Shown here: one piece after another, positions 15,237-20,802 of the stretch
How the letters are laid out: every line of letters begins with the position of its first letter
Numbering within the stretch: the stretch's first letter is position 1
NCBI RefSeq assembly: GCF_001685395.1
Contig: NZ_CP014167.1
Location: forward strand, 2,299,501-2,363,500
DNA from: Paenibacillus yonginensis
GTDB taxonomy: Bacteria; Bacillota; Bacilli; Paenibacillales; Paenibacillaceae
Direction of reading: 5' to 3'
DNA: 64,000 nucleotides
Position numbers and translations under genes: made by a program
The notes under the pieces: generated by a model
Told to the model about the DNA's origin: nothing
Database searches by the model: none
The model's input: the letters and a program-made list of their open reading frames with translations, nothing else

Positions 15237-15680
15237 CTATTTCCGTTTGCGGCCGTTCTTTAACAGCGTCGTTCTCCTGGAGTGCCGCAGCCAGGAATAA
15301 TAGGTTTTCAAATCTCTCAGTTCCATCGTCTCCGACATTCTGCCCAGGAAGGTAACCAGGATCATTTTATAAAGCGGCTGGCCGAGCAAATCCGTCTCTC
15401 CCTGCAGCCCGGTAAATTCCGCAACGAATACCAGATCCTGATCAATCAGGTATACATCCTCTTCATTGCGGTAATATTTCGTAATCCGCCCCTGCTTCAG
15501 GCATTCCCACAAAAAAGTCGCAATCGCATCCGTTTGCAAAACAGCCGAACTTACCCGTTCCTTGTAACGTAGTGCCGCATGATGGGTAACCACAATATCG
15601 GCAACCTTGTAATCGCCAAGGGCAATATAGAAAGATTCATACGTATTCCAACGCTGGGTAGCTCTATCCTTCACGGCCAT
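15237..15680 (-). CDS. Conserved hypothetical protein, 147 residues
   Basis: I do not recognise this gene with certainty. It codes for a basic, soluble protein without signal peptide or membrane segments. The centre (about residues 33-45, THHAALRYKERV) has a His-x(4)-Arg-x-x-Arg pattern reminiscent of DUF4258/RelE-fold proteins, but the rest does not follow. The C-terminus is strongly basic (RHSRRTTLLKNGRKRK), which would suit nucleic acid binding. The start ATG at 15680 is preceded by GGAAGGGAGG. A strong terminator follows the gene and no partner antitoxin-like gene adjoins, so it appears monocistronic. Confidence 0.75.
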   Translation of the reverse strand: MAVKDRATQRWNTYESFYIALGDYKVADIVVTHHAALRYKERVSSAVLQTDAIATFLWECLKQGRITKYYRNEEDVYLIDQDLVFVAEFTGLQGETDLLGQPLYKMILVTFLGRMSETMELRDLKTYYSWLRHSRRTTLLKNGRKRK

Positions 15681-16836: not shown

Positions 16837-18981
16837 TTAATTTTCAGTTGGAAGTACGATTCGAATTCCTTTAATATCCGCAGCGGTGAGCTCCCTGTAG
16901 ATACCTGCCCGGCATGCCTTCTCATCGCTGGGATCCAGCGCCAAATCCGCTCCAGCCCTCCACTCTCCGCTGCCTTTGATCCATTTGGGCAGAGCCGTGC
17001 AGATACCGTTATCCAGCCGCAGCTCTACCCCCGCTTTCCAGGCCAAAGCCTGCTGAAGCAGCAATTTCACCGTGGAGGCATGATAAGCTCTGAGCTCGCT
17101 TGTCCAGGAAGCCGGAACATGACGCAAACCCGGAAACAGCTCCTCCAAATTAGGGATACGCGCATCGGACGGGTAAAGTCGGAACGGTTTGCCTGCATAA
17201 ATCCAGGCTTCGGGAACACAGGTTTCTTGAGGCCGTCCTTCCACTGCCTGTTCAACCAGACTGATGCGGGGGTAACCGGCCTTGCGGGCCGCTGTTTCTC
17301 CAAGCTGATCCGGAGGAACCAGCCCAAGCCGCTCCAGCATTTGATAAACAGGCTTTAAATGGGTATCCTCCACGATAAAGTGACGAGATCCGACCCGCTC
17401 CAGCGCCCCTTCAACAGCCGGCTCTGCGGCAATCCGGTCCGCGGTCTGCTCATCGGGGCAATGCAGCAGCGTTGCCGGTAGCAGAGAAGTGCGTCCGGCG
17501 CCCGCCCCCCATTCACGCACCGCAAGGCTTACGGCTGCGGGCACCCCCGATAAAGCATGACGCTCGAGAAAAGTGAGGATCTCATCCAGCTTGCGGCCGC
17601 CGTTCATCGCCTTCTCGACCGATTCGCGGGTCAGCCGGTAAGTGGTCATAATATCGGCCGAAATCAATTCGCAGCAAAGCTCCAGCTCCCAGCGGATCGT
17701 ATAGGACGTATTCGGAGGAACCAAAATTTCATAATCTGGCTGGACAAAAAAAGCGCCCTCCGAAGCCGACATCAACGGTTTCCTGTGATCGGTCCCGTCG
17801 GTGACCTGCGGATTCCCTTCCCTTCTGTCCGGTTTATCCTCTATTCCAGGCTGAATCCAAGTCTCATGAAACCCGCCGACGCCGATGCCTATCGCCTCAA
17901 GATCGGGTTTGCGGAGCCAGCGGATCATAAGTCCGGCAGGATTAGTGAGCTGATCCACCAGAGGTTCCTCGGTGGCTGGCCAAACGGTAAGCGGCTGCGG
18001 AATCCCTTTCCCTGGTTCGTCGGCATACCCCAGCTCAAGCCAGCCAAATCCGCACAGCGCCTTCAGCCAGGATAACAACCAGAACCCGGTTGTGTCCGCT
18101 TCCTCCTCGGCGCCCTCTGCCTGCTCCGGGTCAGCTGAAGGCGATACCCTAAGAATGCCTTTGGCGCGGAGCTGCCTGAGAATCCCTTCCACACTGCCCC
18201 ATTTCCCTGGCGAAAAAGCCGGATGAAGCAGCGCACAAGCCGCATGCTGGAGGAAAGGACGAGCAGGGACATAACGTTTAAGCAGCTCGGCCATCAGCAG
18301 ACCTTCCATGACCGGCTCAGGGTGTCTCAGCCAGCGGCTGAGCTCGTGTTCCTTTACAGCCCAGGCTTGTTCGGTTCTGCGAGCCAGACCGAGTGCAAGC
18401 GCCATATCCAGCAGAACAGCCGCAACGGGCGGATAATGCTCCTGCTCGGGATAATGGAGCTGCAAGCCGGCCAAATCCTCCTCCTGCAGACTGAACAGCC
18501 CGGTGAACCTGGCAATCGCCCGCTGCTGAACCCTGCCTTTGGCGGTCAAGGGAAGATCCCCTTGGGCAATGGCGGACAAAGCCCGCAGCAAATCATGGGC
18601 GAGTCCCCGTTTCGCTTCCCGCACCAGCTTGACGCAGCCCTGCAACTTTTCATTCCGGCTCCAGTCCGCCTCGAGCAGCAAAAAAGACTTGTGCTGAATC
18701 TCAAAATAAACGCTAAGCGGAAGCGCATAAAGCGGTTCTCCCCAGCCTCTGCTGACCGTGTTCACCAGGCCGGCCTGCCGAAGCAGATGAAGGCCATAAA
18801 CGAGCTCGGCGGCCGGGTAATAAGCCGTTGCCTGGCCTTCCAGCTGCTCAAGCGAAAACGGCTGTGCGGCAAACCGGGTAAACAGGATATCCAGCACTTT
18901 TCTCGCAAGCTTGTCGTTTCTTCCGAATAACGGAACCCTCGGTATTCCTCCATCATCATTCTGCAAGAAGGATCCTTTCAA
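16837..18981 (-). CDS. Helicase-associated protein with XPB/Ssl2 N-terminal-like (Helicase_C_3) domain
   Basis: This 714-residue protein is encoded three bases downstream of the XPB helicase gene. I assign it to the group of bacterial helicase-associated proteins that share the XPB/Ssl2 N-terminal domain (Helicase_C_3). The support is the context and the central region about 410-560: FFVQPDYEILVPPNTSYTIRWELE, then ADIMTTYRLTRESVEKAMNGG and LERHALSGVPAAV, a winged-helix-like damage-recognition fold. The N-terminal 300 residues are helical with repeated Leu-rich winged-helix-like segments (QLEGQATAYYPAAELVYGLHLLRQAGLV). It has no Walker motifs, so it is not an ATPase itself. It likely works with the helicase; the process is unknown. 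Confidence 0.75.
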   Translation of the reverse strand: MKGSFLQNDDGGIPRVPLFGRNDKLARKVLDILFTRFAAQPFSLEQLEGQATAYYPAAELVYGLHLLRQAGLVNTVSRGWGEPLYALPLSVYFEIQHKSFLLLEADWSRNEKLQGCVKLVREAKRGLAHDLLRALSAIAQGDLPLTAKGRVQQRAIARFTGLFSLQEEDLAGLQLHYPEQEHYPPVAAVLLDMALALGLARRTEQAWAVKEHELSRWLRHPEPVMEGLLMAELLKRYVPARPFLQHAACALLHPAFSPGKWGSVEGILRQLRAKGILRVSPSADPEQAEGAEEEADTTGFWLLSWLKALCGFGWLELGYADEPGKGIPQPLTVWPATEEPLVDQLTNPAGLMIRWLRKPDLEAIGIGVGGFHETWIQPGIEDKPDRREGNPQVTDGTDHRKPLMSASEGAFFVQPDYEILVPPNTSYTIRWELELCCELISADIMTTYRLTRESVEKAMNGGRKLDEILTFLERHALSGVPAAVSLAVREWGAGAGRTSLLPATLLHCPDEQTADRIAAEPAVEGALERVGSRHFIVEDTHLKPVYQMLERLGLVPPDQLGETAARKAGYPRISLVEQAVEGRPQETCVPEAWIYAGKPFRLYPSDARIPNLEELFPGLRHVPASWTSELRAYHASTVKLLLQQALAWKAGVELRLDNGICTALPKWIKGSGEWRAGADLALDPSDEKACRAGIYRELTAADIKGIRIVLPTEN

Positions 18982-18984
18982 TAT

Positions 18985-20718
18985 TTAAGCCTCCTCCAAC
19001 GTTTGCTCCCACCCATCTGCAAGTTCCCGATCCTCCATGCTCAGGATGGTATATTCATATCCCTGCTCAGCTAGAAACAGCTGCCGTCTTCTCGCAAATT
19101 CTTCTTCCCGGGTTTGTGCGGAGACGAGACTGTAGAAAAAAGCCCTGTTGTCACCCTGTTTCGGCCTCAGAATTCGGCCCAGCCGCTGCGCTTCCTCCTG
19201 TCTTGAGCCATAGCTTCCGGAAATTTGAATAGCGACGGAGGCATCGGGGAGATCAACCGCAAAGTTTGCCACTTTGGAAACGGCCAGCACGCGGATATCC
19301 CCTGCCCGGAACGCAGCATAAAGATCGCTCCGCTGCTGCTGGGAAGTCGCCCCGGTGATCAGCGGAAGGCCCAGCTCCGAGGCTAAATGGCCCAGCTGCT
19401 CCACATACTGGCCAATAATCAGAACCTGCCGCTCTCCGTGCTCATTTAGCAGCTGCCGGACGGCAGCCGTCTTATTCGGATTCTCCGCAGCCGTCCGGTA
19501 CTGCTCTTTTTTACCAAGCTGATCGTAATGCCTGCGGAGTTCCTCAGGCAGCGGTATCCGGATCTCCCGGCAATCAACCTCCGCTATCCAGCCCTGCCCC
19601 TCCAGCTCTTTCCAGCCAACCTCCTTCTGTTTAGGGCCAATCAGTGAGAAAACGTCCTGCTCGCGGCCGTCCTCCCTGACAAGCGTTGCTGTCAGTCCCA
19701 GCCTTCTAGTCGCCTGGATGTCCGCTGTTGCCCGGAACACCGGAGCAGGGAGCAGGTGGACTTCATCATAAATGATCAGTCCCCAATCCCGGCCGCTCAG
19801 CAGCGGCAGATGCCTGAACCCTTCTTCCTTGCGGGTCCGGTGAGTCAGAATCTGATAGGTAGAAACCGTTACGGGCCGGACCTCCTTCCGCTCTCCCGAG
19901 TATTCGCCGATTTGTTCAGGTGCCAGCGTTGTTTTATGCTGCAGCTCCTGAATCCACTGCCTCACGGAGGTAATATTGGAGGTCAAAATCAGCGTTTCGC
20001 ATTGAAGCCGCTCCATAGCCCCTAGTCCGATAACCGTTTTCCCTGCACCGCACGGCAGCACAAGCACTCCGCTTCCCGCTATATCCTGACCGGCTTCCCG
20101 GCTTCCGGCGAACGCCTCCACGCACGCCTGCTGATAGGCTCTCAGCCGGAAGGGCCTGCCCCCCGGCAGGGCGGTCCTCAGCTCGAAGTTGAGCGCCGTT
20201 CCCTTTCGGTAGCCGGCTTTATCGAGCACAGGATAGCCCAGTCTGGTCAGCTCCTGTTTGAGCAGCCCCCGGCAAGCTGCAGGGACACGGACCTTGCCCT
20301 GGCTCGCCGGGGGCAAATTCAGCCCCTTCAGGTTTGGGTTTTGCAGAATCTGCTCCAGCACTGCTTCTTCCCCATGCTCCGCCTCCAATAACAGCATTCC
20401 GGTTTCGCCAGGCAGGGCCTTCAATTTCAATTGACCGTATCTTCCGATCCAGGTCTTTATATTTTCTTCGACTTTGGCTGGAACCGACCAACGAGACAAG
20501 CGCTTAAGCTTCTCAATTACACCTGCCGCCGTTTCACCTGAAGCAGCCGCATGCCAAAGCGACAACGGCGTAAGCCGGTAGATGTGAAACACGGCCGGTG
20601 TCTTGACCAGCTCGGCGATCTGCCCGAGTGTTTGACGGGCCGCTTCATATTCAGCATGCGCCGTCTCCAGCAGAATCGTATGATCGTTTTGCACCATGCA
20701 TGGACCTTGTCCTGTCAT
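18985..20718 (-). CDS. XPB/Rad25-type DNA repair helicase
   Basis: A 577-residue superfamily 2 helicase of the XPB type. An N-terminal domain of about 180 residues comes first. Then come a Q-like RLRAYQQ (about 191), Walker A PCGAGKT (about 222-228), DEVH box (about 318), and TATLVRED with the XPB-specific RED motif (about 348), followed by the characteristic IGPKQKEV. In helicase domain 2, GDIRVLAVSKVANFAVDLPDASVAIQISGSYGSRQEEAQRLGRILR is the family signature. ATG 20718 is preceded by GAGGAGG. In eukaryotes XPB opens DNA in TFIIH; archaeal XPB pairs with the nuclease Bax1; bacterial functions are poorly known. It is followed at three bases by the XPB-N-like partner. Confidence 0.9.
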   Translation of the reverse strand: MTGQGPCMVQNDHTILLETAHAEYEAARQTLGQIAELVKTPAVFHIYRLTPLSLWHAAASGETAAGVIEKLKRLSRWSVPAKVEENIKTWIGRYGQLKLKALPGETGMLLLEAEHGEEAVLEQILQNPNLKGLNLPPASQGKVRVPAACRGLLKQELTRLGYPVLDKAGYRKGTALNFELRTALPGGRPFRLRAYQQACVEAFAGSREAGQDIAGSGVLVLPCGAGKTVIGLGAMERLQCETLILTSNITSVRQWIQELQHKTTLAPEQIGEYSGERKEVRPVTVSTYQILTHRTRKEEGFRHLPLLSGRDWGLIIYDEVHLLPAPVFRATADIQATRRLGLTATLVREDGREQDVFSLIGPKQKEVGWKELEGQGWIAEVDCREIRIPLPEELRRHYDQLGKKEQYRTAAENPNKTAAVRQLLNEHGERQVLIIGQYVEQLGHLASELGLPLITGATSQQQRSDLYAAFRAGDIRVLAVSKVANFAVDLPDASVAIQISGSYGSRQEEAQRLGRILRPKQGDNRAFFYSLVSAQTREEEFARRRQLFLAEQGYEYTILSMEDRELADGWEQTLEEA

Positions 20719-20770: not shown

Positions 20771-20802
20771 GAAAAAAGCCCGCCGCAAATAGCGGGGGCT
20801 TT
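20771..20802 (-). terminator. Intrinsic terminator downstream of the M20 amidohydrolase
   Basis: On the minus strand AAAGCCCCCGC pairs with GCGGCGGGCTTT (one bulge) and is followed by TTTTTTC. It separates the amidohydrolase from the XPB operon. Confidence 0.8.

Follow-up and report, generated by a model that had tools for sequence, protein, structure and literature searches.

The window analysed here, 64,000 nucleotides of Paenibacillus yonginensis (contig NZ_CP014167.1, positions 2,299,501 to 2,363,500), contains two adjoining genes, the first for the DNA repair helicase XPB and the second for a protein publicly annotated as a 'helicase-associated domain-containing protein' which, by profile comparison and structure prediction, resembles p52/Tfb2 along most of its length. 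p52 is the subunit that controls XPB in human TFIIH, a transcription-and-repair machine, and we conclude that the second gene probably encodes a bacterial p52/Tfb2-like XPB subunit, which would recruit XPB, regulate its ATPase, and sense nucleic acid through its tail. Both genes lie on the minus strand where an initial annotation of the window had placed them, and the pair has the following features (window coordinates):

18985-20718, minus strand: XPB helicase gene (577 amino acids; match to NF045503 and phmmer match to 8ebt_A)
20314-20697, minus strand: XPB N-terminal (clutch-type) domain, residues 8-135, continuing into a DRD-like segment (PF13625, E 3.1e-26)
19039-20151, minus strand: XPB helicase core, residues 190-560, with GAGKT, DEVH, RED, and IGPK (PF04851, PF16203, PF00271)
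18990-18997, minus strand: ribosome-binding site of the partner, GGAGGAGG, inside the 3′ end of XPB and 8 nucleotides before the TTG (read in the sequence)
16837-18981, minus strand: p52/Tfb2-like partner gene (714 amino acids, TTG start; profile A4 against PDB, AF2 model)
17917-18924, minus strand: partner N-terminal helical/winged-helix region, residues 20-355 (p52 chains align from model residue 10-11; weak pre-clutch sequence signal)
17491-17766, minus strand: partner clutch domain, residues 406-497
17329-17472, minus strand: partner p8/p52-CTD-like domain, residues 504-551, beta-alpha-beta-beta-alpha (model secondary structure; p52 chains align through residue 551-556)
16846-17082, minus strand: partner WYL-like (Sm-fold) domain, residues 634-712

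The XPB of the window is an ordinary member of the bacterial family, like those of M. tuberculosis and Kineococcus: it scores 807.4 bits against the curated model NF045503 (DNA repair helicase XPB; cut-off 610, model positions 1-547 of 548) and matches the PDB XPB chain 8ebt_A at an E-value (E) of 1.4e-85 by phmmer. The full signature claimed for it (GAGKT, DEVH, RED, and IGPK) is evident from the translation; an alignment of 36 XPBs shows no variation in DEVH and RED, and the positions of GAGKT and IGPK are invariant or 90% conserved, except for the I of IGPK. The spacer between the XPB stop and the TTG start of the partner is exactly 3 bases (ATA), as first described.

The partner was initially described as lacking any ATPase motif and carrying only winged-helix and XPB-N-like segments. 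The first part agrees with our searches, in which the Pfam matches at E<=1 include no ATPase domain and consist of Helicase_C_3 at residues 412-527 (PF13625, E 2e-18) and, weakly, Tfb2 (PF03849, E 0.0094); PF13625 falls in both proteins. The second part is too narrow, for the partner also has a WYL-like tail, and its likeness to p52/Tfb2 (GTF2H4) extends beyond the XPB-N-like segment. Specifically, i) profile A4, built from 83 partner sequences and searched against 177,635 PDB sequences, ranks Tfb2 first (E 1.5e-8, with an alignment spanning Tfb2 87-393) and finds human p52 at E 2.8e-7; ii) all 36 Foldseek matches of the partner AF2 model (pLDDT 84, pTM 0.84) at E<=0.001 come from TFIIH entries and were read as p52 or XPB chains; iii) the p52 chains align over partner model residues 10 to 552 (ends 551-556 across chains); and iv) the predicted order of domains is that of p52/Tfb2, an N-terminal winged-helix region followed by a clutch homologous to the XPB N-terminal domain (NTD) and then by a small alpha/beta domain of the p52 C-terminal or p8 type. 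Features that mark p52/Tfb2, a clutch with the XPB-NTD fold and a winged-helix region preceding it, are thus found in the partner, which, again like p52/Tfb2, occurs together with XPB. It differs from p52/Tfb2 in being bacterial, in scoring under the Pfam Tfb2 cut-off, and in its WYL-like tail.

Several results weigh against a p52 relationship. Overall, the partner model departs widely from p52 (root-mean-square deviation 16 A over 380 residues), so that the comparison tests domain order, not spatial arrangement. The window partner scores below the Pfam Tfb2 gathering score (15.3 versus 34.5 bits), PF03849 is above cut-off in none of 299 Bacillota genomes, and at E<=0.1 it also matches control genomes, E. 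coli among them; because the cut-off is not reached, we term the partner p52-like rather than a Pfam Tfb2 member. In that reverse search, 7 of the 18 matches at E<=0.1 fall in partner genes, and three control genomes match below cut-off; at E<=0.01 there are 7 matches, 5 of them in partner genes and 2 with internal stops. A clutch-only profile cannot tell p52 (29.7) from the human XPB NTD (31.8). With a profile of the p8-like domain alone, Tfb5 appears in PDB at E 0.3-0.4, ranked under unrelated matches, and across the profile searches Tfb5 reaches E 0.19-0.4 against this segment, which is not significant.

An alternative is that the partner has an independent bacterial origin: the N-terminal module of XPB, made up of NTD and DRD-like domain, would have been duplicated and joined to winged helices, and the partner would act as an XPB subunit but not be a p52 relative as a whole. 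By hhalign, the partner clutch and p8-like domain align with the XPB NTD and DRD-like domain over 151 columns (probability 99.6, with an E of 6e-24 that applies to this single comparison); the clutch-only profile gives XPB and p52 similar scores, and winged helices are common folds. A profile of the XPB NTD, for its part, gives 75.7 and 61.8 bits to eukaryotic XPB NTDs versus 14.2 and 8.7 bits to p52/Tfb2. We nevertheless regard such a duplication as unlikely, although it is the best of the alternatives: p52/Tfb2 comes first in the full-length profile ranking, p52 chains align from well before the clutch through the p8-like domain, and the pre-clutch segment retains a signal of its own, the Tfb2 score being reached by 0 of 2000 shuffles and that of human p52 by 7 of 2000 (the segments having been picked by the same profile).

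The distribution and order of the two genes also tie the partner to XPB. Among the 299 Bacillota genomes, 20 have an XPB that passes its cut-off and 21 give a match to the partner profile; all 20 XPB genomes carry the partner (Fisher p 3e-30, treating genomes as independent despite their relatedness). XPB is also above cut-off in Corynebacterium glutamicum. In the Bacillota set, XPB and partner are neighbors (no more than about 150 nucleotides apart, by open reading frames) in 18 of the 20, with the order reversed in one of the 18 (G218); in G093, XPB is split over two contigs whose coordinates agree with adjacency, and in G040 XPB and partner are on separate contigs. A further genome (G235), kept outside the counts, has the partner on a 4.4-kb contig and no XPB at E 1e-50. 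In a set of 29 genomes, the partner profile matches 25, including the window's own; the four with no match (G001, G019, G024, and G027) stand outside the XPB counts. XPB lies upstream of the partner on the same strand in all of 80 named loci, an arrangement beyond chance for that reason, and in 77 of the 80 the genes are separated by no more than 10 nucleotides or overlap by no more than 60 (54 with a 4-nucleotide overlap, by mechanical start calls). These loci, the best 80 of 113 matches, are a biased sample because they were found with two Paenibacillus clutch peptides, and nearly all are labelled Paenibacillus.

A plasmid survey reaches further. The 33 records with XPB comprise ten bacterial full-length ones, which the survey covered, 22 haloarchaeal ones, and one from C. 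diphtheriae; in each of the ten, a partner match lies no more than about 5 kb from XPB. The partner adjoins XPB in P. cellulosilyticus, Gloeocapsopsis, and Arthrobacter, and lies upstream of it in the last two. In three Deinococcus records a single small gene matching the p8-like segment separates XPB and partner; in its products (L108:4472-4771, L134:5741-6070, and L138:5734-6081) a basic N-terminal tail precedes that segment. Less favorable to a fixed pairing, XPB and partner are 3.5-4.7 kb apart in Nonomuraea, Tsukamurella, and Nocardia, and on opposite strands in Nocardia and in Actinomyces; in Actinomyces they diverge from either side of a small, unrelated gene. Co-conservation of XPB and partner is thus wide, yet the two do not form a strict operon everywhere. 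No further conserved neighbor was found among 25 mostly non-Paenibacillus loci, in 3 of which one regulator cluster recurs.

Divergent XPBs of two Bacillota genomes (G033 and G262) fall below cut-off and were scored as XPB without partner in the 299-genome searches. An archaeal-type partner was considered for them and rejected: a protein of 383-400 amino acids overlaps XPB by 4 nucleotides and gives a weak clutch match (20.6-21.0 bits). These proteins (L123:2933-4084 and L124:2654-3856) match no Pfam family and end at the clutch, which is near the C-terminus; with their XPBs they may represent a pared-down form of the pair.

The initial annotation had proposed a damage-recognition or transcription-coupled complex of the two proteins. 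Our results establish the gene pairing, the domain make-up, the p52 likeness, and the co-conservation, whereas the physical complex is inferred. Two homologous domains are split here over co-occurring genes, and among the partner regions measured conservation is highest in the clutch (mean top-residue fraction 0.52, compared with 0.35 in the N-terminal region, 0.42 in the p8-like domain, and 0.37 in the WYL-like domain); an XPB-p52 unit is the likeliest reading. Structure prediction lent the interface no support: XPB and partner residues 1-575, co-folded as one read-through chain, gave a pTM of 0.55 and no confident relative placement, compared with 0.84 for the partner alone. This counts against a complex, but the co-fold neither proves nor excludes an interface because its 87 alignment rows (the window, 5 fused relatives, and 81 unpaired rows) are shallow and mostly unpaired.

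If the partner is indeed p52-like, its clutch would engage its homologue, the XPB N-terminal domain, in the way the p52 clutch does in TFIIH, and its p8-like domain would sit on the XPB motor; the partner could then recruit XPB, turn on the otherwise poor ATPase of XPB, and limit its speed, while the N-terminal winged-helix region might attach to DNA or to a further machine, either RNA polymerase or a repair complex. In TFIIH, p52 and p8 activate the XPB ATPase when DNA is absent and cap it when DNA is present (PMC7708078). The extra WYL-like tail, a property of Paenibacillaceae partners, may sense single-stranded nucleic acid and so link XPB to DNA that is opened or damaged. A fitting precedent by analogy would be a bacterial PIF1 helicase, whose WYL domain is reported to bind single-stranded DNA and to stimulate the helicase (PMC6789036). 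A link of XPB to transcription may possibly be seen in the M. tuberculosis ercc3 mutant, which is rifampin-hypersusceptible, although a CRISPRi screen did not show this (PMC10534295).

The tail and the winged helices also suggest another role, in which the partner would be an independent winged-helix/WYL protein that regulates transcription in the DNA-damage response and shares no more than an operon with XPB. The nearest structures to the WYL-like domain are Sm-fold WYL proteins, PafBC, DriD, and BrxR among them, and winged-helix structures match model residues 14-96; the C-terminal piece of the window partner has no Pfam family at E<=5, and Pfam WYL is matched by 2 of 57 partner-family members. 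We find this role distinctly improbable, since a conserved XPB-homologous clutch, which leads the measured regions in conservation, is unexpected in a regulator, several distant members have no C-terminal region or a very short one, and every one of the 20 XPB genomes carries the partner. In favor of an anti-phage defense system, XPB has distant matches to the PADLOC model PbeA (E 2.5e-24), as SF2 helicases share cores. We consider this reading very improbable: the partner matches no PADLOC family at E<=0.1 and nothing in 50,697 phage records and is found in 25 of 29 genomes, and the window and P. cellulosilyticus have the neighbors of the pair in common (YlbF, YlbG, and an amidohydrolase).

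We return to the p52-like subunit and to what is known of comparable systems. The role of bacterial XPB is regarded as poorly understood. According to a 2012 study (PMC3353954), no other TFIIH subunits had been found in bacteria, and bacterial XPB is likely to act without a TFIIH-like complex. Archaeal XPB likewise has a dedicated partner, Bax1, a nuclease according to PMC13024598; the window partner differs, with no Bax1 among its Pfam matches (E<=1) or its 25 PDB matches (E<=10). A 2019 paper on PafBC counted the combination of Helicase C3 with WYL, which is that of the window partner and probably belongs to its class J (WYL with a helicase domain); the term XPB occurs 0 times in that paper, and the combination is not linked to XPB there (PMC6789036). 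A literature search by title, abstract start, or passages, with most subscription papers outside its reach, found no report of a bacterial p52. The p44 and p34 families (PF04056, PF03850) have no match in the window's genome, in searches whose controls were weak (one genome, below cut-off) or silent. In M. tuberculosis the adjoining gene, Rv0862c, is the putative counterpart of the partner.

We wish to stress that a larger claim is tentative, namely that bacteria may possess a true equivalent of TFIIH's XPB-p52-p8 motor unit, in which the p8-like domain is part of the p52-like protein and, in Deinococcus, occurs as a free protein as well. Such a unit might be a regulated translocase that predates TFIIH or shares its origin, opening DNA at stalled RNA polymerase or lesions besides Mfd, whose gene is also present in the window's genome. 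Even a p52-like subunit accompanying XPB would mean that XPB has until now been assayed without its regulator, would allow a two- or three-protein model of the TFIIH motor unit to be produced in E. coli, and would bear on the origin of TFIIH.

Three observations lie at the edge of these families. In the 22 haloarchaeal plasmid records with an XPB-like helicase, most matches begin at about query residue 25-47. Outside the window, at G000:C1:2122255-2122857 (L143), a 402-amino-acid frame resembles part of the winged-helix region at the partner N-terminus (E 1.1e-7 over profile positions 63-263), with no clutch match reported. On the Singulisphaera plasmid pSINAC01 (L109:4464-5492), a short protein with a clutch and p8-like match is encoded beside an IS66 element, in a 10-kb stretch with no annotated XPB.

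In the window, the pair is flanked by an M20 peptidase gene and by YlbF- and YlbG-family genes (Pfam annotation), and the flanking genes YlbF, YlbG, and amidohydrolase recur in the P. cellulosilyticus annotation. A sigma-70 promoter scan gave 2 sites versus 1.7 expected and is uninformative. One further feature lies between the M20 peptidase gene and XPB, on the upstream side of XPB; the evidence for it is weak because the region has 5 such sites versus 5.5 expected in shuffles:

20779-20796, minus strand: terminator-like hairpin

Positions 15237-15680 hold a 147-amino-acid open reading frame that matches neither Pfam nor NCBIfam at E<=1, and a hypothetical gene, alike in size and place alone, occupies the matching position in P. 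cellulosilyticus.
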